From Streptomyces luteolus (GTDB taxonomy: Bacteria > Actinomycetota > Actinomycetes > Streptomycetales > Streptomycetaceae), in NCBI RefSeq assembly GCF_029968015.1, contig NZ_JASCIS010000001.1, positions 1 to 64,000 on the forward strand: a stretch of DNA of 64,000 bases, read 5' to 3'. The translations under genes and the position numbers were made by a program. The notes under the pieces were generated by a model. It made no database searches, was not told the DNA's origin, and saw nothing but the letters and a program-made list of their open reading frames with translations. This document shows positions 6,642 through 47,790 of this stretch, in pieces (positions within the stretch are counted from its first letter, which is position 1; every line of letters starts with the position of its first letter).

Positions 6642-7442
6642 TCAGTGGCCCAGGTACTTCGGCTGCTCCTTGGCGATGAACGCCTCCACCGCGATGTGGT
6701 GGTCCGCGGACGAGCCCGCCCTGGACTGCAGCTCGTCCTCCTTCTCCAGCGTCTCGTCGAGCGAGTGCCCGGCCCCGTACGCCAGGGACTCCTTGAGCGC
6801 GGCGTACGCCAGGGTCGGTCCCGCGGCCAGGGCGCGGGCCGTGCGCTCCGCCTCGGCGGCGAGCTCGTCGGCGGGCACCAGCTTGTTGGCGATGCCCAGG
6901 TCGTACGCCTCCTGCGCCTTGATGCCGCGCGGGAAGAACAGCAGGTCGGCGGCGCGGCTCTGGCCGATCAGGCGGGGCAGTGTCCAGGAGACCCCGGAGT
7001 CGGCGGTCAGCGCGACACCCGCGAAGGACGTGTTGAACGAGGCGGTGTCCGCGACGACGCGGTAGTCCGCGGCGAGCGCGAAGCCGAAGCCCGCGCCCGC
7101 GGCCACGCCGTTCACGCCCGCGACGACCGGCTTCGGCATCCCGGTGAGGGCCCGCACGATCGGGTTGTAGTGCTCGCGGACCGTGCTCATCGTGCCGTTC
7201 GTGCCCGCGTCCCGGTCCTCGGCGAGCTTGCCGATGTGCTCCTTGAGGTCCTGGCCGACGCAGAAGGCCCGGCCGGTCGCGGTGAGCAGCACGGCCCGTA
7301 CGGCGGTGTCGGCGGCCGCCTCCTGGAGCGCGTCCCGGAGGGCGGCCTTCGCGTCGGTGTTCATGGCGTTCATCGCGTCGGGGCGGTTCAGCGTGATCGT
7401 CGCGAGTCCGTCGCTCACCTCGTAGAGCACGGTGTCGGCCAT
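6642..7442 (-). CDS. Enoyl-CoA hydratase/isomerase-family protein
   Basis: The product has 266 residues with the crotonase fold. It shows ITLNRPDAMNAMN near the N-terminus, the oxyanion-hole segment AFCVGQDLKEH (about 65-75), and the GVAAGAGFGFALAADYR segment around 110-130. The middle glutamate typical of hydratases is not evident (the site reads TADSGVSWTLPR), so an isomerase-type activity such as the PaaG group fits better than classic hydratase. ATG 7442 is preceded by GAGGGG at 6-nt spacing; longer in-frame starts lack a ribosome-binding site. It is transcribed divergently from the DUF3117 gene. Confidence 0.85.
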   Translation of the reverse strand: MADTVLYEVSDGLATITLNRPDAMNAMNTDAKAALRDALQEAAADTAVRAVLLTATGRAFCVGQDLKEHIGKLAEDRDAGTNGTMSTVREHYNPIVRALTGMPKPVVAGVNGVAAGAGFGFALAADYRVVADTASFNTSFAGVALTADSGVSWTLPRLIGQSRAADLLFFPRGIKAQEAYDLGIANKLVPADELAAEAERTARALAAGPTLAYAALKESLAYGAGHSLDETLEKEDELQSRAGSSADHHIAVEAFIAKEQPKYLGH

Positions 7443-7679
7443 GTCGGTCCCCTCCATCGGTGCGGCTCCCGGCCGTTCACGGCCGTGGGCGCGGGTCTGC
7501 TCGGCGTCGTTCACGCACAGCATGGCGGAGATCATCTCGGCCCGGCATGGGCCCCGGCATGTGACCTGCGTCAAACAATCGATGTGCGGCAGGGCGTGCG
7601 AGGTGGCGCAGTATCGCAGCCACATCGCCGAATTGAGTGGTTTTGGTCAAGCGCGTTGCGCAAGCGATGCCTACCGATG

Positions 7680-38093: not shown

Positions 38094-39392
38094 GTGGGAC
38101 GGCACTCACGGCGGGGGGCCGCCGAGAAGTCCGACACCGGGGCCGTGCCGGTCGCGCAGCCCGCGCAGCCCGCGCAGGGTCCCGGCTCCGGGCGCCGTAG
38201 GCGCGGCGCACCGGGCCGGGCTCCTCGCGAGGAGGGCTCGCGCCCCGCGCCGCCCGAAGGGCCGCGCCCGCACCCCGAGCACCGTGAACAGGGCGGCGCC
38301 TGGGGCGAGTTGGGCACCGGGGCGTATGTGACGCCGAACCCTTCCCAGCCCCTTGGGCAGTCCCGTATACCTGGCCCGCGGCACGAGTACGTCGCGGCCT
38401 TCGACGGACTCGACCCGCACGGCCCGGACCGCGACCCGGACGACGTGTTCGCCGCCGGCGCCCCGCCCAGGCGGCCCACGGACGCGGACGACCCGTACGA
38501 CGGCCTCGCCGACCGGGATCCCGATGGCGAGGCCGAGGACTTTCCGGCCGAACAGCCCGATGCCGTACGGGAGAAGAGCGGCCGGGGCCGCGCCTTCGCC
38601 GGGATCGCCGCGGCCGCGGTGACGACCGTGCTCGCGGGCGTCGTCGCCGTGCAGGTCGCCGGCAGTGACGGCGACGCCCGCGCCGGAGCCGTCGACGCCG
38701 GTGAGGTGCGCGAGCAGGCCGAGGCGGCGTCCGACGCGTCCCGTGACGCCGAGCGCCCGCCGCCGTCCGAACCGGCCGCCGAGCCGAAGCCGGAGACGTA
38801 CGAGCAGAAGATGGGCAAGAAGGTCCCGCTCGACCCGGACCTGAAGGGCGGCGGGAAGTTCGAGGCCATCGGCGGCTTCGACAAGGCGCCCGGCACCGGC
38901 GAGAGGTTCCGGTACCGCGTGGACGTCGAGAAGGGGCTCGGCCTCGACGGGAAGATGTTCGCGCAGGCCGTGCAGAAGACCCTGAACGACGAACGGAGTT
39001 GGGCGCACGGCGGCGCCAGGACCTTCGAGCGGGTCTCCAGCGGCGAGACCGACTTCGTGATCACGCTCGCCAGTCCGGGCACGACCGACGTGTGGTGCGC
39101 CAAGTCAGGGCTCGACACCAGCGTCGACAACGTCTCCTGCGACTCCGCCGCCACGGAGCGCATCATGATCAACGCCTACCGCTGGGCGCAGGGTGCGAAG
39201 CCGTACGGCGACGCCATCCACGCGTACCGCCAGATGCTCATCAACCACGAGGTGGGCCACCGGCTCGGCTACAACCACGTGATGTGCAGCAACGACGGGG
39301 CGCTCGCGCCGGTCATGCAGCAGCAGACCAAGTTCCTGGAGCACGACGGCATCAAGTGCCGCCCCAACCCCTGGGCCTTCCCCGGAAATTGA
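38094..39392 (+). CDS. DUF3152 membrane-anchored zincin-like protein
   Basis: The product has 432 residues from GTG. A long disordered cytoplasmic part (1-160) is followed by one transmembrane helix (about 165-187, AGIAAAAVTTVLAGVVAVQVAG) and an extracytoplasmic domain. The latter ends with HEVGHRLGYNH (His385, Glu386, His389, His395), an exact HExxHxxGxxH metzincin zinc signature, and Cys pairs nearby that may form disulfides. DUF3152 is usually annotated as unknown; zinc-peptidase activity at the cell surface is a sound inference. Confidence 0.85.
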   Translation: MGRHSRRGAAEKSDTGAVPVAQPAQPAQGPGSGRRRRGAPGRAPREEGSRPAPPEGPRPHPEHREQGGAWGELGTGAYVTPNPSQPLGQSRIPGPRHEYVAAFDGLDPHGPDRDPDDVFAAGAPPRRPTDADDPYDGLADRDPDGEAEDFPAEQPDAVREKSGRGRAFAGIAAAAVTTVLAGVVAVQVAGSDGDARAGAVDAGEVREQAEAASDASRDAERPPPSEPAAEPKPETYEQKMGKKVPLDPDLKGGGKFEAIGGFDKAPGTGERFRYRVDVEKGLGLDGKMFAQAVQKTLNDERSWAHGGARTFERVSSGETDFVITLASPGTTDVWCAKSGLDTSVDNVSCDSAATERIMINAYRWAQGAKPYGDAIHAYRQMLINHEVGHRLGYNHVMCSNDGALAPVMQQQTKFLEHDGIKCRPNPWAFPGN

Positions 39393-39582
39393 CGCTCCGT
39401 AGCCGGATCCGCGCTTAGCGCAACAGAACGCCACCCGCGCGCGAAAGTTACGACCGTTCACCCCTTTTGGTGGCGCGGCGGACGACTGTCCATCGTGTCA
39501 CCGCCGTCCCCGCGTACGTTCGTCCCGCTGCGGGCCGACCGAGCAACGGCGGCCCCCCACAAGGGAGATCGGGGGTGTACTC

Positions 39583-41412
39583 GTGCGCATCGGACTGCTC
39601 ACGGAGGGTGGCTACCCGTATGTGACCGGTGAGGCCAGGCTCTGGTGCGACCGGCTCGTGCGCGGCCTTGAGCAGCACGCCTTCGACGTGTTCGCCCTGA
39701 CCCGCAGCGCCCACCAGGAGCAGCAGGGGTGGATCGAACTGCCGCCCCAGGTACACCGGGTGCGCACCGCGCCGCTGTGGAGCGCCGACGACGGCTCCGG
39801 CCGCGGCGGCCGGCTCGGTGACGGCACGGGCTACCGCCGCCGGCAGCGGCGCCGCTTCGCCGAGCACTACGGCGAGCTGGCCGCCGCGATCTGCGCGGGC
39901 GCTGCGGGCGCTGCGGGCTCGTCGGGCGCTGCGGGCTCGGCGGGTGACGGCTCCGCCGAAGTGGCGGACCGTTTCGCCAGCGCTCTCTACGGGCTCGCCG
40001 AACTCGCCCGTGACGAGGGCGGACTCGCCGTCGCGCTGCGCTCCGAGACCGCCGTGCGCGCCCTGGAACGCGCCTGCCGCGCCCCCGGCGCCGCCCGCGC
40101 CGCGCACGAGGCCCGCGTCCCCGATCTCCTGGTCGTCGCGGCGCAGTTGGAGCAGGCGCTGCGGCCCCTCTCCCTCGACTGGTACGAGGACGAGGAGGGC
40201 GGGCTCGGCTCCGTCGACCTCTGCCACGCCGCCTCCGGCGGCTGCGCCGCACTGCCCGGACTGCTCGCCCAGCACTTCTTCGGGGTGCCGCTGCTCGTCA
40301 CGGAGTACGGCGTGCAGCTGCGCGCGCACTACCTCGCGGGCGCCGGTGAGCAGGCGGGTGCTCCGGCGCGTGCGCTGGTCGCCGCCTTCCACGGCCGGCT
40401 CGCCGCGGAGGTGTACCGGCAGGCCGCGCTGATCACCCCGGGCAACACGCACGCCCGCCGCTGGCAGGAGAAGTGCGGTGCCGATCGGGCCAAGCTGCGC
40501 ACCGTCTACCCGGGCATGGCCGCCGGCCGGTTCGCCGAGGTCGGGGAGGCCGGGGCGGACCAGGCGGACCCGGACACCCTGCTGTGGGTGGGCCGGATCG
40601 AGCCCGCCAAGGACCTGGTCGGACTCCTGCACGCCTTCGCCGAGGTGCGCAAGGAGGAGCCGAAGGCGCGGCTGCGGATCGTCGGCGCACTGGCGCACGG
40701 CGAGGAGTGCGAGACCTATCTCGCGCACTGCCGCGCGCTGGCCGCGCAGCTCTTCCCGGACGAGGCGGACGGTGTGCACGCGGTGGGCGACAACCCGGTC
40801 TCCTTCGAGGAGTTGGGTGGCCCCGAGGTGCCCGAGCTCCCGGACGCGTACGGGGCGGGCAGCGTCGTCGTCCTCTCCAGCGTCGTGGAGGGCTTCCCGA
40901 TCAGCCTCGTCGAGGCGATGTTCTGCGGGCGGGCCACCGTGTCCACCGACACCGGCGCGGTCGTCGAGGTCATCGGCGGTACGGGGCTCGTCGTCCCGCC
41001 GCGCAACCCCAAGGCGCTCGCCGACGCGTGCGTGGCGCTGCTGCGCGACCCCGAGCGCCGTGAGCGCCTGGGCGCGGCCGCCCGCGCGCGGGCCCTCGAA
41101 CTCTTCACCGTGGAGCAGAACATCGCCGCCTTCCACGGCATCTACCTGGAGATCGTCTCGCACTGCCCCGTACGCAGGGATGTCCTGGACGAGGACGGCG
41201 ATCCGCTGCCCTTCGCCAATCCCGCGGAGACGCACGTGGCGGGCCGCTGGTCCACCGCACCCGGCACGGACGGCGAAGCCGGGCCGCGATTCGGCCAGTG
41301 GCTCGCCGCGCGCAAGGGGACGCGGAGCGGGCCGAGTTGGGCCGCGAGCGGGACCACCGCGCCTGAGGGCGAGCCGGTGGCCGCCGCCGCGGCCGGCGAG
41401 GGGGAGGCATGA
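39583..41412 (+). CDS. PelF-like GT4 glycosyltransferase (DUF3492)
   Basis: The product has 609 residues from GTG. The N-terminal DUF3492 domain begins RIGLLTEGGYPYVTGEARLWCDRLVRGL and has TEYGVQLRAHYL. The C-terminal GT-B half has LLWVGRIEPAKDLVGLLHAF and the donor-site ExxE region SSVVEGFPISLVEAMFCGRATV. PelF polymerises the partially acetylated GalNAc/GlcN Pel exopolysaccharide in Pseudomonas and some Gram-positives. An Ala/Gly/Ser insert near residue 107 is low complexity. The stop overlaps the next start (ATGA). It is the first gene of a five-gene overlapping cluster. Confidence 0.85.
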   Translation: MRIGLLTEGGYPYVTGEARLWCDRLVRGLEQHAFDVFALTRSAHQEQQGWIELPPQVHRVRTAPLWSADDGSGRGGRLGDGTGYRRRQRRRFAEHYGELAAAICAGAAGAAGSSGAAGSAGDGSAEVADRFASALYGLAELARDEGGLAVALRSETAVRALERACRAPGAARAAHEARVPDLLVVAAQLEQALRPLSLDWYEDEEGGLGSVDLCHAASGGCAALPGLLAQHFFGVPLLVTEYGVQLRAHYLAGAGEQAGAPARALVAAFHGRLAAEVYRQAALITPGNTHARRWQEKCGADRAKLRTVYPGMAAGRFAEVGEAGADQADPDTLLWVGRIEPAKDLVGLLHAFAEVRKEEPKARLRIVGALAHGEECETYLAHCRALAAQLFPDEADGVHAVGDNPVSFEELGGPEVPELPDAYGAGSVVVLSSVVEGFPISLVEAMFCGRATVSTDTGAVVEVIGGTGLVVPPRNPKALADACVALLRDPERRERLGAAARARALELFTVEQNIAAFHGIYLEIVSHCPVRRDVLDEDGDPLPFANPAETHVAGRWSTAPGTDGEAGPRFGQWLAARKGTRSGPSWAASGTTAPEGEPVAAAAAGEGEA

Positions 41413-41828
41413 ACAAGTTGCTTGCGGCCGTGCGGGACTGGCCGGTGACGCCGAGGAGCCCGGGAAGCTGGGACGCCCGCTCGGCGGCGGCGCTCGCCGC
41501 ACCTGCTCCGGCGCCCGCACCCGCCCTCGCGCCCACCCCTGCGCCGGTCCCCGCTTCCGCGCTCGCGTCCGCCCCGGTTCCCGCCGCCGCGCCCGCGCCT
41601 GCGCCCGTCTCCGCTTCCGCGCCGGCGTCCGCCCCGGTTCCCGCCGCCGCGCCCGCGCCTGCATCCGTCTCCGCTTCCGCGCTGGCGTCCGCCCCGGTTC
41701 CCGCCGCCGCGCCCGCGCCTGCATCCGTCTCCGCTTCCGCGCCCGCGTCCGCCCCGGTTCCCGCCACCGCGCCCGCGTCCCGTTCCGCGTGGTGTGCCGC
41801 TTCGGCGGGCGGTGAGGGGGAGGGATGA
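41409..41828 (+). CDS. Ala/Pro/Ser repeat protein in the Pel-like cluster
   Basis: The product has 139 residues, starting and ending in 4-bp overlaps with its neighbours, which argues it is translated. The first 21 residues (MNKLLAAVRDWPVTPRSPGS) look like the only non-repetitive part; the rest is PAP/VPA/SAS sequence from 60-bp DNA repeats. There is no signal peptide or domain. It may be a disordered linker-like protein, or the remnant of a larger gene whose centre collapsed into repeats. Confidence 0.6.
   Translation: MNKLLAAVRDWPVTPRSPGSWDARSAAALAAPAPAPAPALAPTPAPVPASALASAPVPAAAPAPAPVSASAPASAPVPAAAPAPASVSASALASAPVPAAAPAPASVSASAPASAPVPATAPASRSAWCAASAGGEGEG
41530..41785 (+). repeat. 60-bp tandem repeats (about four copies)
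   Basis: The period is exactly 60 bp with only a few substitutions per copy. Each unit includes GTCTCCGCTTCCGCG and CGTCCGCCCCGGTTCCCGCC. 60 is a multiple of 3, so the Ala/Pro/Ser reading frame is kept. Confidence 0.93.
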
Positions 41829-42988
41829 GTGACTCTCGTACGGCGCGTACGGGCATGGCGTCTGACAACGCCCCCGTCGGCGACGCCGAATCCGGTGCCG
41901 GGGTGACGCAGCGCAGGACCGGTCGGCGCGGTGCCGTCGATCCCGTCAAGGCGCTGATCCACCGTCACCGCGGGCTCTGCGAACGCGCCGTCGACCCGCT
42001 GGAGATCGCCGCCGGGCTTGAGGCGCACGGCGTCACCGACCGGACCGCCGCGCGCTACCGGCACCGGGACGTGTTCTCGCTCGCCGAGGAGATGTACGCG
42101 CGCGTGCCCCGTGACGAGCGCCCCTCCGCCATGCGCCCCGCACCCACTGCCGATCCCGCCGCAGGCAGGCCGCCCCGCGCCCACGCCCTGCTGGCGCTGC
42201 TGCCTCCGGCCGTGGGCGTCGGCACCGTGGTCGCGTACGAACTCACGGGCGGGCGCGGCCGGTTGGCCGCACTGGGCGTCGGGATGTTCGCGCTCGCCGT
42301 CGCGCTGCGGATCGCCCTGCGCCGCGGCCCGCTGCGCGCCCGCGGCGGGACCCTGCCCGGCACGCGCGCGTGGACCGTGTTTCTGCTCCTGTACGCACTG
42401 TTCGGCGACGGGCTGCTCCGTGCCGCCCTCGCCGGTGGGCCCGACGCGCCCTGGCCGCCGGACACCGCCACGCTCCTCGGCCTGGCCCTCGCGTACGCGC
42501 CCGCCGTCTGGTGCGCCCGGCTCTTCGCCACGGGCGCGCGGCGGCGGCTCGGCCAGAGCCGGGGCCTGGAGGAGTTCGCGGCCGGGACGCGCCCGCTGCT
42601 GCTCGCCCTGGTCGCGCTGTACGCGGCGGCCGCCGGCGGGCTGCTCGTGCTCGCCGGGCAGGTCCTCGGCCAGGCCGGACCGCCGCTCGGGGCCGTGCTG
42701 CTCTGCGTCCTGCTGCTGCTCGCCCGGATGCTCACCGCGTACGGCTTCCGCGTCGCGCCGGGCTTCGTGCTCGGCGGGGTGTGCGCCCTCGAAGGGCTCG
42801 CCGTCGCCGCGGTGTTCGGGGCGCGGCTGCCCGGCTGCGAGCTGCTCGCCGTACCCGTCGAGACCGTGGGTGCCGGGGCCGTCCCGGCGCTCGCCTGCGG
42901 GGCCGGGGTCCTCGTCCTGCTCGTCGCCGCGACCCGACGCCTCACCCGCGCCTCCGCCCATGCCGCCGGACCGGGGGACTCCCCGTGA
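41825..42988 (+). CDS. Polytopic membrane protein of the Pel-like cluster
   Basis: The product has 387 residues. A cytoplasmic N-domain (1-115) contains DPVKALIHRHRGLCERAVDPLEIAAGLEAHGVTD, which looks like a conserved folded module. It is followed by about eight to ten transmembrane helices of Leu/Ala/Gly. I do not recognise a family. By position between a PelF-like transferase and an epimerase it could supply the membrane export or scaffold role that PelD/E/G play elsewhere, but no sequence evidence shows that. The start overlaps the previous stop (ATGA). Confidence 0.7.
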   Translation: MSDSRTARTGMASDNAPVGDAESGAGVTQRRTGRRGAVDPVKALIHRHRGLCERAVDPLEIAAGLEAHGVTDRTAARYRHRDVFSLAEEMYARVPRDERPSAMRPAPTADPAAGRPPRAHALLALLPPAVGVGTVVAYELTGGRGRLAALGVGMFALAVALRIALRRGPLRARGGTLPGTRAWTVFLLLYALFGDGLLRAALAGGPDAPWPPDTATLLGLALAYAPAVWCARLFATGARRRLGQSRGLEEFAAGTRPLLLALVALYAAAAGGLLVLAGQVLGQAGPPLGAVLLCVLLLLARMLTAYGFRVAPGFVLGGVCALEGLAVAAVFGARLPGCELLAVPVETVGAGAVPALACGAGVLVLLVAATRRLTRASAHAAGPGDSP

Positions 42989-43115
42989 CCCCCCGGCCCG
43001 CCTTGCCCACCGCCCCGTACCACCCCGAACGCTCCCGCGTGGCCGACCCCGCGGGCCTCCACCCCGTGCACCACCCGTGCACCACCCCGTGCAACACCCC
43101 GAAGGAGAACGCCAG

Positions 43116-43163
43116 ATGACCACCCTCGCTCACCGAGCATCCGTCCCTGGGGGCGCCCGATGA
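43116..43163 (+). CDS. 15-codon leader ORF coupled to the epimerase
   Basis: The tiny ORF (MTTLAHRASVPGGAR) has a strong AAGGAG site 8 nt upstream, while the epimerase start has no site of its own. Its TGA overlaps the epimerase ATG (ATGA). It probably serves to load ribosomes by translational coupling; it may also be the remnant of a longer gene. The rest of 42,989-43,115 has direct repeats of CCGTGCACCACC. Confidence 0.5.
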   Translation: MTTLAHRASVPGGAR

Positions 43164-44116
43164 GGGTGCTGCTCCTCGGAGCCAACGGATTCCTCGGCCG
43201 CTACGTAGCCGACCGGCTGCTCGCCGACCCCGCCGTCCAGCTCACCGCGCTCGGCCGCGGCGACGACGCGGACGTACGCTTCGACCTCGCCAGCGGCAGC
43301 CCGGGCGCCCTCGCCCGGTTCCTGGACGCGGTGCACCCCGGCGTCGTCGTCAACTGCGCGGGTGCCACCCGCGGCGGCGCCCGCGAGCTCACCCGGCACA
43401 ACACCGTTGCCGTCGCCACCGTCTGCGAGGCGCTGCGCCGCAGCGGCTGCGGGGCGCGGCTCGTCCAGCTGGGCTGCGCCGCCGAGTACGGGCCCAGCCA
43501 GCCGGGATCGTCCACCGCCGAGGACGCCGCGCCCCGGCCCGGCGGCCCGTACGGCGTGAGCAAGCTCGCCGCGACCGAACTGGTCCTCGGCTCCGGGCTC
43601 GACGCCGTCGTCCTGCGGGTCTTCTCGCCCGTCGGGCCCGGCACCCCGCCCGCCACCCCGCTCGGCCGGCTCGCCGAGGCCATGCGCCGGGCCATGCAGT
43701 CCGGCGACGGCGAGCTGAAGCTGGCCGGACTCGGCGTGCAGCGGGACTTCGTCGACGTACGGGATGTCGCGCGGGCCGTGCACGCCGCCTCCCTCTCCGC
43801 CGCGCAGGGCGTCGTCAACATCGGCTCGGGCCGCGCGGTCCGGCTGCGGGACGCGGCCGCCGTGCTCGCCCGGGTCGCCGGATACGGCGGCGCCCTGCAC
43901 GAGCTGGACGCCGGGCCCACCGGCCGCCCCGCCATCGGACACCCGCGGCCCGACCCGGACCACGCGATGCCGGCCGTGTACCCGTACCCGGACGGCTGCG
44001 GCAGCTGGCAGCAGGCCGATGTGCGCACCGCGCGCGACCGGCTCGGCTGGCGGCCCCGGATCAACCTCGAAGAGTCACTCGCCGACATCTGGATGGAGGC
44101 GGCATGCCGCATCTGA
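43160..44116 (+). CDS. NAD-dependent sugar-nucleotide epimerase/dehydratase
   Basis: The product has 318 residues and is an extended SDR: nucleotide motif GANGFLGRYV (about 7-16), NCAGATRGG, the active-site region LGCAAEYGPS and YGVSK (Tyr/Lys of YxxxK). RDFVDVRDVARAV and VVNIGSGRAVRLRD are typical of UDP-hexose 4-epimerase/dehydratase relatives. It most likely makes the amino-sugar donor for the PelF-like transferase, as PelX does in some pel loci. The end overlaps the next gene by 13 bp. Confidence 0.85.
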   Translation: MRVLLLGANGFLGRYVADRLLADPAVQLTALGRGDDADVRFDLASGSPGALARFLDAVHPGVVVNCAGATRGGARELTRHNTVAVATVCEALRRSGCGARLVQLGCAAEYGPSQPGSSTAEDAAPRPGGPYGVSKLAATELVLGSGLDAVVLRVFSPVGPGTPPATPLGRLAEAMRRAMQSGDGELKLAGLGVQRDFVDVRDVARAVHAASLSAAQGVVNIGSGRAVRLRDAAAVLARVAGYGGALHELDAGPTGRPAIGHPRPDPDHAMPAVYPYPDGCGSWQQADVRTARDRLGWRPRINLEESLADIWMEAACRI

Positions 44117-44856
44117 TCGACCGGACGGGTCCCGCGCACGCCCTCGCCGGCGCCACCATGGGCCTGGGCGTGCCCGGCTACGCCCACCCGCTGCTCGCGC
44201 CCGTCGAGTGGGCGGAGCTGAGCCGCCCCGACACCCCGCTGCACTGGGTCGTCCTGAATGTCGCGAACGGCCCGGGCGCCCGCCCCGACCCGCACTGCCT
44301 GGAGGCAGCAGGCCGTCTCAGTAACGCCGACGTACGGGTCCTCGGCCACCTCGACCTGCGCCACGGCACCCGCGACTTCGGCGAGCTGGTCTCGGACGCG
44401 CACCGCTACCTCGACTGGTACCGGATCGACGGCTTCCTGCTGCACCACGCGCCCGCCGAGCGCGCCGCACTGCCCGAGACCCGGCGCGTCGCGAGCACAC
44501 TACGGGCGCTGCTGCCCGAGGCGCACCTGGTGTTCGGGCACGGCACCCACCCGTATCCGGGGTACGCGGAGGAGGCCGACCAGCTGGTCACGTTCTCCGG
44601 CACCTGGGCGGACTACCGCTGGTCACAGGTGGCCGAGTGGACCGCCGACTATCCGCCCGAGCGGTTCTGCCACCTGGTGCACGGCGTCCCCGGCGGCCAC
44701 CTGGAGGAGGCGCTGCGGGTGGCCCGCTGGCAGGGCGCGGGCACGATCTGGTTCACGGACCGCACGGACCGGCGCGGCACCGTCGACCCCTTCGGAGCGC
44801 TGCCCGGGTACTGGGACGAAATCGTCTCGCGTATCGGACGCGGTGTCTCGGAATGA
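44104..44856 (+). CDS. Spherulin-4-like (GH135-type) protein with altered catalytic dyad
   Basis: The product has 250 residues. The fold landmarks of spherulation-specific family 4 are seen: GVPGYAHPL near the start, LNVANGPG, GHLDLRHGTRD and the YLDWYRIDGF segment. In characterised GH135 enzymes the segment after DG carries acidic catalytic residues (FFDE-like); here it reads LLHH (112-115). There is no signal peptide, so the protein should stay in the cytoplasm. Hydrolysis of galactosaminogalactan-like polymers is therefore doubtful; a binding or scaffold role is possible. Last gene of the cluster. Confidence 0.8.
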   Translation: MPHLIDRTGPAHALAGATMGLGVPGYAHPLLAPVEWAELSRPDTPLHWVVLNVANGPGARPDPHCLEAAGRLSNADVRVLGHLDLRHGTRDFGELVSDAHRYLDWYRIDGFLLHHAPAERAALPETRRVASTLRALLPEAHLVFGHGTHPYPGYAEEADQLVTFSGTWADYRWSQVAEWTADYPPERFCHLVHGVPGGHLEEALRVARWQGAGTIWFTDRTDRRGTVDPFGALPGYWDEIVSRIGRGVSE

Positions 44857-44919: not shown

Positions 44920-46098
44920 GTGTCGCTGCCACCCCTGGTCGAGCCAGCTGCTGAGCTCACCGTCGACGAGGTCCGCAGGTACTCCCGCCACCTGATCATC
45001 CCGGACGTCGGGATGGACGGGCAGAAGCGGCTGAAGAACGCCAAGGTGCTCTGTGTGGGCGCCGGCGGCCTGGGTTCGCCCGCGCTGATGTACCTGGCCG
45101 CGGCCGGCGTCGGCACGCTCGGCATCGTGGAGTTCGACGAGGTCGACGAGTCGAACCTGCAGCGCCAGATCATCCACAGCCAGGCGGACATCGGCCGCTC
45201 CAAGGCCGCGTCCGCGAAGGACACGGTCCTCGGCATCAACCCGTACGTCACGGTGAACCTCCACGAGGAGCGGCTCGAGGCCGACAACGTGATGGAGCTG
45301 TTCGCCCAGTACGACCTGATCGTCGACGGCACCGACAACTTCGCCACGCGCTACCTCGTCAACGACGCCTGCGTGCTCCTGAACAAGCCGTACGTCTGGG
45401 GCTCGATCTACCGCTTCGACGGCCAGGCCTCCGTGTTCTGGTCCGAGCACGGCCCCTGCTACCGCTGCCTCTACCCGGAGCCCCCGCCGCCCGGCATGGT
45501 TCCGTCCTGCGCCGAGGGCGGCGTGCTCGGTGTGCTCTGCGCGTCGATCGGCTCCATCCAGGTCAACGAGGCCATCAAGCTGCTCGCCGGCATCGGCGAC
45601 CCGCTGGTCGGCCGCCTGATGATCTACGACGCCCTGGAGATGCAGTACCGCCAGGTGAAGGTCCGCAAGGACCCCGACTGCGCGGTGTGCGGCGAGAACC
45701 CCACGGTCACCGAGCTCATCGACTACGAGGCGTTCTGCGGCGTCGTCTCCGAGGAGGCCCAGGAGGCCGCGCTCGGCTCCACGATCACTCCGAAGCAGCT
45801 CAAGGAGTGGATCGACGCGGACGAGAAGATCGAGATCATCGACGTCCGTGAGCAGAACGAGTACGAGATCGTCTCGATCCCCGGCGCCAAGCTGATCCCC
45901 AAGAACGAGTTCCTCATGGGCAACGCCCTCCAGGACCTGCCGCAGGACAAGAAGATCGTCTTGCATTGCAAGACGGGTGTCCGCAGTGCGGAAGTCCTCG
46001 CGGTCTTGAAGTCCGCGGGCTTCGCCGACGCCGTCCACGTGGGCGGCGGCGTGATCGGCTGGGTCCACCAGATCGAGCCGAGCAAGCCGGTGTACTGA
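44920..46098 (+). CDS. moeZ: MoeZ-type sulfur-carrier adenylyltransferase/sulfurtransferase
   Basis: The product has 392 residues from GTG, with GGAG at 5-nt spacing. The ThiF/E1-like domain (about 20-260) has the nucleotide loop GAGGLGSPALMYLAAAGVG, DESNLQRQ, and zinc Cys pairs CYRC and CAVC. A C-terminal rhodanese domain (about 290-392) has active Cys350 in HCKTGVRS. It adenylates and thiolates sulfur-carrier proteins for molybdopterin, thiamine, cysteine or thio-metabolite pathways. Molybdopterin supply links it functionally to NarG in this window, though they are 9 kb apart. Confidence 0.9.
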   Translation: MSLPPLVEPAAELTVDEVRRYSRHLIIPDVGMDGQKRLKNAKVLCVGAGGLGSPALMYLAAAGVGTLGIVEFDEVDESNLQRQIIHSQADIGRSKAASAKDTVLGINPYVTVNLHEERLEADNVMELFAQYDLIVDGTDNFATRYLVNDACVLLNKPYVWGSIYRFDGQASVFWSEHGPCYRCLYPEPPPPGMVPSCAEGGVLGVLCASIGSIQVNEAIKLLAGIGDPLVGRLMIYDALEMQYRQVKVRKDPDCAVCGENPTVTELIDYEAFCGVVSEEAQEAALGSTITPKQLKEWIDADEKIEIIDVREQNEYEIVSIPGAKLIPKNEFLMGNALQDLPQDKKIVLHCKTGVRSAEVLAVLKSAGFADAVHVGGGVIGWVHQIEPSKPVY

Positions 46099-46155: not shown

Positions 46156-47790
46156 CTATGCGCACGTCTTCCCGTGCTCCGGCACCGTCCCGTCCAGCAG
46201 GTACGCGTCGACCGTCGACGTCACGCACGCGTTGCCCGCGCCGTACGCCGTGTGCCGTTCGCCCTCGTAGGTGAGCTGGACGCCGACGCCGGGGCCGAGT
46301 TCTTCGACCATCCGCTCGGCGCCCTCGATCGGCGTGGCCGAGTCGCCGGTCGTGCCGACGACCAGGATGGGGTCGGCGCCCGGCGCGCTCACCTCGGGGG
46401 TGTCGTGCGCGCCCGGCACCGGCCAGGCGTGGCACCAGCCCGCGACGTCCCAGCCGAGGAACGCGCCGAAGACCGGCGAGATCCGGCGGAACTCCGGGAG
46501 TACGGCCCTGGCCTGCGCCGCCGTGGGCCGCCTCTTGGCGTCGGCGCAGGAGATCGCCCGCTGGGCGTGGCTCTGGGTGCCGTAACTCCCGGACGCGTCA
46601 CGGTCGTTGTACTGGTCCGCGAGGGCAAGGAGCTTTCCGCCGCGGCCTGCGCGCGCGTCGTCCAGGGCGGCGGTGAGCGAGGACCAGGACTGCTCGCTGT
46701 AGAGGGAGGCGAGGATTCCGGTCAGGGCGAGGCTCTCCGTCAGCTCGCGGCCGTCGCCGGCGGGCAGCGGCTCCGCGTCGATGCGCTTCAGCAGGCCGAC
46801 CAGGGAACGGGTGCCCTGCTTCGGGTCGGCGCCGGTGGACCTCAGGTAGTTCTCCAGGGCGCGCTGGAAGCCGGTGGTCTGGTTCCTGGCGTGGCCGACG
46901 CTGTCGGCGCTCGGGTCGACGACCCCGTCGAGGACGACCCGGCCCACGTTCTCGGGGAACAAGTGGGCGTACGTACCGCCCAGTTCGGTGCCGTACGAGA
47001 ATCCGAAGTAGTGCAGCTTGTCGTCGCCGAGCACCTGCCGCATCAGGTCCAGGTCGCGGGCCGCGTCGGACGTGCCGATGTGCGGCAGGACCTTGCCCGA
47101 GCGGCGCTCGCAGCCCGCGCCGAAGTCCGCGGCGTCCGCGAAGTACGCCTTCTCCTCGGCGGCCGTGTCCGGCGTCAGGTCGACCTCGGCGCCCGCGGCT
47201 TCGAGCTCCTGGTCCGAACGGCACCGCACACCGGAGCTGGCGGCGACCCCGCGCGGGTCAAAACTCACCAGGTCGTACCGGGAGTTGAGGTTCGTGAAAA
47301 GGGAGGCCATGGCGGGCAGCCCGGACACGCCCGAGCCGCCGGGCCCGCCGAAGTTGAAGAGGAGCGAGCCGATCCGCCCGTCCCGGTCGGTGGCCTGCCT
47401 GCGGATCAGCGCGAGGTCGATGGTCTCGCCGTCCGGCTTCGCGTGGTCGAGGGGCGCCTTCATCGTGGCGCACTCCCAGCCCTCGCCGGGCGCGCCGGTC
47501 TCGCACGTACCCCAGTCGAGCCGCTGGCCGGTGAGCGAGGCGGGCAGACCGCCGGCCGCGCCACTGTCGGCGGGTCCGGGCTCCTTCTCCGCGGCGCCCC
47601 GACCGGGGCCGCCGCAGCCGGTGATCAGCAGAGCCCCGGCGAGCACGGCCGAAGCGAGGCGCCGTACGGCCGTACGCGATATGCCACCGGCGGAATCAGC
47701 GGAATCAGCGGAATCAGCGGAATCAGCGGAATCAGCGGAATCAGCGGAATCAGCGGAATCAGCGGAATCAGCGGAACCAGATGCGGGCAT
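46156..47790 (-). CDS. SlpD/TAP-type exported peptidase with (Ser-Ala-Asp)n leader
   Basis: The product has 544 residues from ATG 47790. Residues 1-36 are almost wholly SAD tripeptides. Then comes a lipoprotein signal (RTAVRRLASAVLAGALLITGC). The hydrolase domain has FNFGGPGGSGVSGLP, SFDPRGVAASS, nucleophile elbow FGFSYGTELGG, a TAP-like C-terminal region with VVGTTGDSATPIEG (Asp) and EGERHTAYG (His). Streptomyces SlpD/SlpE and tripeptidyl aminopeptidase are relatives. It is paralogous to the neighbour at 47,879. The repeat leader ahead of the signal is odd. Confidence 0.85.
   Translation of the reverse strand: MPASGSADSADSADSADSADSADSADSADSADSAGGISRTAVRRLASAVLAGALLITGCGGPGRGAAEKEPGPADSGAAGGLPASLTGQRLDWGTCETGAPGEGWECATMKAPLDHAKPDGETIDLALIRRQATDRDGRIGSLLFNFGGPGGSGVSGLPAMASLFTNLNSRYDLVSFDPRGVAASSGVRCRSDQELEAAGAEVDLTPDTAAEEKAYFADAADFGAGCERRSGKVLPHIGTSDAARDLDLMRQVLGDDKLHYFGFSYGTELGGTYAHLFPENVGRVVLDGVVDPSADSVGHARNQTTGFQRALENYLRSTGADPKQGTRSLVGLLKRIDAEPLPAGDGRELTESLALTGILASLYSEQSWSSLTAALDDARAGRGGKLLALADQYNDRDASGSYGTQSHAQRAISCADAKRRPTAAQARAVLPEFRRISPVFGAFLGWDVAGWCHAWPVPGAHDTPEVSAPGADPILVVGTTGDSATPIEGAERMVEELGPGVGVQLTYEGERHTAYGAGNACVTSTVDAYLLDGTVPEHGKTCA
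47690..47779 (-). repeat. 9-bp tandem repeats encoding (Ser-Ala-Asp)n
   Basis: Nine perfect GCGGAATCA units (plus strand) and one variant GCGGAACCA. A multiple of 3, so copy changes preserve frame but alter the length of the N-terminal leader. Confidence 0.95.

Follow-up and report, generated by a model that had tools for sequence, protein, structure and literature searches.

A core Streptomyces operon that appears to derive from a galactosaminogalactan-type locus and to have been stripped and repurposed

The window analyzed here, a 64,000-nt stretch of Streptomyces luteolus contig NZ_JASCIS010000001.1, harbors at positions 39583 to 44856 an operon that encodes a PelF-like family 4 glycosyltransferase (GT4), a membrane protein, an extended short-chain dehydrogenase/reductase (SDR), and a Spherulin-4 protein. 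As judged from comparative sequence analyses, the operon descends from galactosaminogalactan-type (GAG) loci, lacks their Agd3-type and GH114 genes, encodes a shortened membrane protein and a Spherulin-4 protein that has lost its catalytic residues, and shows both synteny and purifying selection. This descent and these losses are well supported. As to what the complex does, we infer, with a rough probability of 0.45 and hence tentatively, that the operon is a stripped, repurposed paralogue of a GAG-type locus, core to Streptomyces and present in most of the genera sampled in the family; it would add one or a few sugars to an envelope acceptor and would not make a Pel or GAG polymer.

Gene content and order

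An earlier note on this DNA had described a compact Pel-like polysaccharide locus of five genes, and the five open reading frames (ORFs) were present where it had placed them. The operon and its surroundings are as follows, with loci of the window's type referred to as core loci.

39583 to 41412, + strand: PelF-like DUF3492/GT4 glycosyltransferase, core type (Pfam DUF3492, E 2.8e-26, plus GT4 domains)
41409 to 41828, + strand: Ala/Pro repeat ORF, the membrane protein's disordered N-terminal tail in detached form (ATGA overlap at both ends)
41825 to 42988, + strand: 8-transmembrane (8-TM) protein without a Pfam or NCBIfam family, related to but shorter than the membrane protein encoded in GAG-type loci
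43160 to 44116, + strand: extended SDR, sugar-nucleotide epimerase/reductase type (Pfam Epimerase, E 2.1e-37)
44104 to 44856, + strand: Spherulin-4 protein (GH135-type), predicted pseudo-glycosidase (Pfam Spherulin4, E 2.5e-20)
44920 to 46098, + strand: moeZ (ThiF/rhodanese sulfurylase, named from its translation), the usual downstream neighbor
38094 to 39392, + strand: DUF3152 protein (Pfam PF11350, E 4.7e-61; alternative gene-caller start at 38328)
39416 to 39582, + strand: conserved region 5′ of PelF, with the near-invariant core GAAAGTTACGaCCGTTCACCCCTT at about 39443 to 39466 (alignment of 18 Streptomyces upstream regions)

Of 80 Streptomyces loci retrieved with PelF as the query protein, 76 have the order PelF–membrane protein–SDR–Spherulin-4–MoeZ, and the remaining four (L062, L102, L105, and L110) lie at contig ends, judged by their ranges. 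Specifically, 66 of the 80 read DUF3152–PelF–membrane protein–SDR–Spherulin-4–MoeZ–TAP-like protein, the last on the opposite strand, and 10 have the same order minus one end gene. Because the loci were fetched by PelF similarity, the presence of PelF in all of them is by construction. Independently of this fetch, the membrane protein was matched in 58 of 61 same-genus genomes, in a few over a short stretch only. The gene order is conserved far beyond chance, and the genes clearly co-occur; the lack of conserved co-occurrence that would have refuted the earlier note is not seen. One Streptomyces locus, L131, shows no Spherulin-4 gene. The moeZ gene lies 3′ of the operon in 76 of the 80 Streptomyces loci and in the 19 non-Streptomyces core loci that were fetched. 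DUF3152 lies 5′ of PelF in 77 of the 80 (at least L040 and L109 begin less than 200 bases from PelF); it is a usual neighbor in Streptomyces and is not thought part of the operon's function.

The PelF gene and the next ORF share an ATGA overlap, and the SDR gene overlaps the Spherulin-4 gene. The description of all five genes as overlapping or nearly so thus holds for PelF, tail, and membrane protein and for SDR and Spherulin-4, but not for the membrane protein and the SDR, which are separated by 171 bp (42989 to 43159; about 100 to 1060 bp in relatives). The Ala/Pro repeat protein is not a protein family of its own. In 73 of the 76 complete Streptomyces loci, a single ORF that begins at the PelF stop codon (ATGA overlap) reads through the tail into the membrane protein. 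The two are split, with ATGA overlaps, only in L032 and L033, the nearest relatives of the window, and in L103 no start was found. This fusion rules out a separate Ala/Pro protein family, and the ORF, which contains a 60-bp tandem repeat in 4.3 copies at 41520 to 41777, is a lineage-specific fission of the disordered membrane-protein tail. Neither 41409 to 41828 nor 41825 to 42988 matched a Pfam family and the membrane protein matched no NCBIfam family either, in agreement with the claim of a membrane component of unnamed family.

The conserved stretch at 39416 to 39582 is presumably a promoter/operator, and no Rfam match to an RNA element was obtained in it. GTTAC/GTTCACC within GAAAGTTACGaCCGTTCACCCCTT resembles MtrA/PhoP-type sites. 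Directly 5′ of the core genes in L120, L143, L144, L146 to L151, and L158 lie genes for an oligopeptide-type ATP-binding cassette (ABC) transporter or genes of similar size; the transporter naming (SBP_bac_5, OppB/C-like permeases, double ATPase) comes from Pfam runs limited to one gene of L120 and three of L144. Farther downstream in the window, a 9-bp tandem repeat of 10 copies at 47690 to 47780 encodes a run of Ala-Asp-Ser close to the beginning of the minus-strand TAP-like protein.

Relationship to galactosaminogalactan-type loci

The assignment of the transferase to the DUF3492/PelF family was borne out by the Pfam match listed above; with the NCBIfam PelF model, the window GT4 scored 99.7 bits vs. 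a cut-off of 100. A role in glycogen or trehalose metabolism was rejected, as matches to those enzymes were far below cut-offs and the DUF3492 domain is full length. DUF3492 was found in 39 of 345 genomes of the class, in 7 of 126 genera. Matches within the genus were of two kinds, core copies at about 90 to 123 bits (some fragments at 37 to 55) and canonical copies at about 190 to 214 bits. One or two canonical copies were present in 15 of 33 same-genus genomes and none in the window genome, which has one DUF3492 and one Spherulin4 match.

The eight canonical Streptomyces loci compared (L112 to L119) all encode an approximately 700-residue Agd3-like protein, a glycosyltransferase (GT), and a longer membrane protein; seven encode Spherulin-4, five have two SDRs plus a nucleotidyltransferase, and four have a GH114 cluster. 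Pfam and NCBIfam names for the canonical loci come from L119 only. A profile of 11 Agd3-like sequences matched 6nwz_A with an E value of 6e-16, and the GH114 protein matched 6ojb (Ega3) with an E value of 1.5e-59. The naming of Agd3 rests on the 6nwz_A match, and results with the Pfam Agd3 models speak against it: they did not match the Agd3-like proteins of L119 or L157, gave only CBM87 below cut-off in Kocuria, and exceeded the cut-off only for the CE domain in Thermus. An annotated plasmid copy of Streptomyces californicus has the same gene set. LegB-like SDRs occur in canonical loci L112 to L115, L119, and L138 (L119: TIGR04180, 458.9 bits vs. a cut-off of 475), and 6 of 10 such SDRs compared carry a dehydratase-type TSTSETYG motif. 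Together with the nucleotidyltransferase and a reductase-like SDR, they suggest that the donor in canonical loci may be an NDP-6-deoxy-hexosamine and not plain UDP-GalNAc.

Of 27 full Agd3 matches, 26 have a canonical-type PelF no more than about 10 kb away, and the 27th is a second copy in genome G301; no match adjoins a core PelF. Among 20 further family genomes, Agd3 was found in 10, and at the fetched locus only in G416, whose locus, L157, is canonical. The window genome contains no Agd3-type gene by the profile that was positive in 19 of the 39 DUF3492 genomes, and no GH114 gene by PF03537, for which the control was positive in 2 of 14 genomes.

The GTs were placed in trees of 40 and 53 proteins that held eight Pel rows from plasmids and genomes (five beside annotated pelG and three arthrobacterial); Pseudomonas aeruginosa PelF and the fungal GT were not among the proteins. 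In both trees a branch with 100/100 support parts the eight PelF proteins from the rest. All core GTs form one clade (100/100 in the 40-protein tree and 100/99 in the 53-protein tree) within the GAG-type side, adjoining the canonical Streptomyces and L157 copies. In the 40-protein set, all bootstrap trees (100%) recovered both the Pel group and the core group intact. The deeper branching order is unsure because the program flagged long branches and uneven letter make-up. The core GT4 thus groups with GTs found with Agd3, GH114, and GH135, and the locus is not a reduced Pel locus proper. The compact polysaccharide locus of the earlier note stands as to its genes and their co-occurrence, but neither as a Pel locus nor as one with a separate Ala/Pro protein.

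Operons of the parent type have been described. Actinobacterial agd3 operons with a GT, a membrane protein, GH114, and in some cases Spherulin-4 are reported in PMC7229062. The core locus resembles them in bringing together a GT4, a multispanning membrane protein, Spherulin-4, and SDRs, and both its GT4 and its membrane protein have homologues in the Agd3-bearing loci that we fetched. It differs in that it has no Agd3-type (CE18) deacetylase and no GH114, its membrane protein is shorter, its Spherulin-4 lacks the catalytic residues, and it occupies a fixed place beside moeZ. The galactosaminogalactan cluster of Aspergillus and Neurospora (uge3, gtb3, agd3, ega3, and sph3) comprises the same enzyme families as the parent bacterial loci, of which the core locus keeps only the SDR, the GT, and an inactive-looking Spherulin-4. 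The likeness to Pel loci (P. aeruginosa pelABCDEFG and the Gram-positive pelDEADAFG; PMC7112168) is the DUF3492 GT4, but that GT4 falls in a different clade, and PelG was not detected by profile, a weak test, nor PelD or PelE in the operon.

Catalytic residues and the membrane protein

The Spherulin-4 protein of the window aligns with Sph3 (5d6t; phmmer E 4e-8). In this alignment, H114 lies opposite D134 of the chain, G145 opposite N170, and S165 opposite E190; with an offset of 32, these chain residues are Asp166, Asn202, and Glu222. The acid/base of Sph3 is given as Glu222 and its nucleophile is printed as Asp196 (PMC12054363). Asp, Asn, and Glu are each present in 13 of 13 canonical Spherulin-4 proteins. 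We take Asp166 and Asn202 to be catalytic in Sph3 and the printed Asp196 to be a misprint. In Streptomyces core proteins, Asp is kept in 66 of 81, Asn in 0 of 81, and Glu in 0 of 81; in the six core proteins from other genera, the counts are 6, 0, and 1. The window protein, which has neither the Asp nor the Glu (H114 and S165), is therefore predicted to be a pseudo-glycosidase, and of the claimed galactosaminidase-type protein the Spherulin4 domain remains and the catalytic residues do not. Its translation has no hydrophobic N terminus. The actinobacterial locus L122 encodes two Spherulin-4 proteins (6704 to 7528 and 1051 to 1725), only one of which has a hydrophobic segment at its N terminus.

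The SDR is of the sugar-nucleotide epimerase/reductase type. The PelX-type assignment did not hold. The nearest solved relative is 2pk3, a GDP-6-deoxy-hexulose reductase (E 4e-20), and 6wj9/6wjb follow with E values of about 1e-15; we take 6wj9/6wja/6wjb to be PelX, a UDP-GlcNAc C4-epimerase, to which the likeness is that of one extended SDR to another. In addition, the Ser/Thr-Tyr-Lys triad is not intact. Y131 and K135 are kept, as are the corresponding Tyr and Lys in 82 of 82 Streptomyces and 19 of 19 other SDRs, but the triad Ser is replaced by Cys106. The window GT4 has the motif of retaining GT4 enzymes, E436-x7-E444 with R338 and K343, and Tyr242 in place of the His of TEHG, which contacts the donor in other GT4 enzymes. 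Across Streptomyces core GT4s, both Glu of E-x7-E are kept in 76 of 76, the Arg in 74, and the Lys in 75.

The core and canonical membrane proteins are homologous (hhalign 99.7%, 331 columns). Their profiles span 358 vs. 470 columns, and two large gaps follow the first helices; the missing ∼110 columns amount to roughly four helices. Because hydropathy counts of TM segments were noisy, the shortening was judged from profile lengths and from the model. The AlphaFold2 model of the core protein has a pLDDT of 83.6 and eight long helices in its membrane part. In a structural alignment, the ten best rows were all of the MOP superfamily (MATE, MurJ, and WzxE; Z 9.1 to 11.3, next row 7.1), scores within the chance range for helical bundles, and Foldseek gave nothing at E <0.1. 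A MOP-like origin is accordingly a lead from modeling. A highly conserved 60-residue N-terminal domain (about 41930 to 42121) modeled alone with a pLDDT of 93; its best Foldseek hit had an E value of 7.2, and the structural alignment gave no row with Z ≥2 among five chains. Compared with five PelG proteins, the core membrane protein scored 0.1% in hhalign, and the range across core, canonical, and arthrobacterial membrane proteins was 0.0 to 1.1%. This test has little power because even the arthrobacterial proteins, which lie beside GTs of the true Pel clade, reached only 1.1%. A Pfam scan of the operon proteins and two flanking proteins found no PelD or PelE family (a genome-wide search was not made). 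Within these limits, the operon lacks the PelD/E/G partners as well as an exported deacetylase, as the note had said.

These data bear on the view of the earlier note, a compact and working system for a Pel/GAG-like exopolysaccharide, with the 8-TM protein standing in for PelG and without a deacetylation step. The intact GT4 motif in Streptomyces, the best alignments of the model with MOP-superfamily exporters, and expression in sporulating mycelium (see below) fit such a system. However, the membrane protein lacks about 110 columns of its canonical relative, Foldseek found no match under E 0.1, the hydrolase residues are lost, GH114 and Agd3-type genes are missing from the window genome, and the GT4 motif is lost elsewhere in the clade. 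We thus consider a working polymer system improbable.

Selection, spread, and possible function

Ratios of nonsynonymous to synonymous substitution (dN/dS) between the window and five relatives were 0.00 to 0.11 for the SDR, 0.19 to 0.26 for PelF, 0.15 to 0.40 for Spherulin-4, and 0.36 to 0.58 for the membrane protein. By this measure the operon genes are under purifying selection, weakest in the membrane protein. That the operon is decaying ballast hitch-hiking beside moeZ might be read from its lost catalytic residues and from the absence of Spherulin-4 in most core loci outside Streptomyces, but the dN/dS values disfavor it, the SDR is 80 to 100% identical to that of the window across the 76 complete Streptomyces loci, and induced expression has been reported (PMC3610822). 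Decay is therefore very improbable.

The membrane protein was matched in 106 of 121 family genomes and 14 of 17 genera, some matches being to the short N-terminal domain of other loci. Twenty non-Streptomyces family loci were fetched; 19, from 12 genera, are core loci with membrane protein, SDR, and moeZ, and L157 is canonical. A GT4 lies in front of the core genes in 18 of the 19, and Spherulin-4 is present in 6 and absent from 13. Spherulin4 (PF12138) was found in at least 26 of 345 class genomes, 24 of which also have DUF3492; the count is an undercount because PF12138 misses some core genes (e.g., in G147, where locus L128 shows one). Genomes G069 and G248 have a strong Spherulin4 match without DUF3492, so Spherulin-4 also occurs apart from the DUF3492 GT.

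Several observations weigh against the proposed transfer of sugars by a stripped, repurposed complex. Of the 16 aligned core GT4s from outside Streptomyces, 8 retain the first Glu, 10 the second, 9 the Arg, and 8 the Lys. The GTs without the first Glu form one sub-clade of seven rows plus L159. L151 (genome G407) retains the membrane protein, SDR, and moeZ with no GT by profile, and about 1.1 kb without a called gene occupies the place of the GT. The motif loss in other genera together with L151 speaks for a shared function that needs no transfer. Moreover, Tyr replaces the TEHG His in 75 of 76 core GTs of Streptomyces and 8 of 16 others, but all 17 canonical and all 9 Pel GTs have the His. 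In the SDR, Cys replaces the triad Ser in 82 of 82 Streptomyces proteins and 9 of 19 others; with these two replacements, both likely enzymes may be altered or inactive. Finally, the dN/dS of the membrane protein is only moderately low.

A reading that would accommodate these points, though an unlikely one in our estimate, is that the whole exopolysaccharide-synthase operon was converted, family-wide, into a conserved pseudoenzyme complex, a noncatalytic, membrane-bound sensor of sugar nucleotides or scaffold whose output would be control of envelope assembly and development in sporulation and not a glycan. Its members would be a dead GH135, a truncated exporter, an altered SDR, and a GT4 that is dead in one branch of the family; the GT4 and SDR would bind the nucleotide sugar and Spherulin-4 a glycan. 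This reading is in keeping with the loss of the GT4 motif in the sub-clade and L159 while the SDR Tyr and Lys persist in 19 of 19, with the gene content of L151, and with the loss of catalytic residues from Spherulin-4 in Streptomyces. Selection on the GT is also purifying in three pairs from the sub-clade with dead-looking GTs (dN 0.14 to 0.18 vs. dS 0.47 to 0.52), with the membrane protein at dN 0.30 to 0.36 vs. dS 0.57 to 0.65; in the close pair L149/L150, where the motif is intact, the GT signal is weaker (dN 0.08 vs. dS 0.14). Yet the near-complete retention of E-x7-E, Arg, and Lys in Streptomyces suggests selection for transfer.

No paper on the locus as such was found in the literature searched, which excluded supplementary files and subscription journals; only single tags are named there. 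In Streptomyces coelicolor, SCO5174, SCO5175, and SCO5177 show increases of log2 2.2 to 3.8 in stages of the second, sporulating mycelium (PMC3610822), a SCO5174 mutant makes less actinorhodin (PMC6585502), and SCO5178 is moeB (PMC4340878). From the label "Transferase" on SCO5174 and the gene order before SCO5178 moeB, we infer that SCO5174 to SCO5177 are this locus.

Because polymer-processing parts and key catalytic residues have been lost, the operon probably does a different job in developing hyphae. In the stripped-paralogue reading that we favor, the Streptomyces GT4 would be seated, on the cytoplasmic side, on the truncated membrane protein's conserved N-terminal domain. It would receive a sugar nucleotide that the SDR of the operon handles and, while aerial hyphae grow and sporulate, would transfer one sugar or a few to an acceptor in the envelope. 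Spherulin-4, dead in this reading and taken as cytosolic, may serve as a glycan-binding or scaffold subunit that is dispensable in other genera, and the product would not be a secreted, deacetylated Pel/GAG polymer. Overall, a membrane complex for an envelope glycan or for binding sugar nucleotides is our best guess, and not a Pel exporter.

If this reading is true, Streptomycetaceae possess a core developmental operon of clear origin, the likely counterpart of SCO5174 to SCO5177. GAG-type loci, with their transferase, CE18-type deacetylase, GH135, and often GH114, occur in 15 of 33 sampled Streptomyces genomes beside the fixed, stripped paralogue, and this coexistence of core and canonical copies is a natural experiment showing which components a polymer synthase may lose. 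The labels "PelF" and "spherulation-specific family 4" in Streptomyces genomes do not imply Pel production or hydrolase activity.

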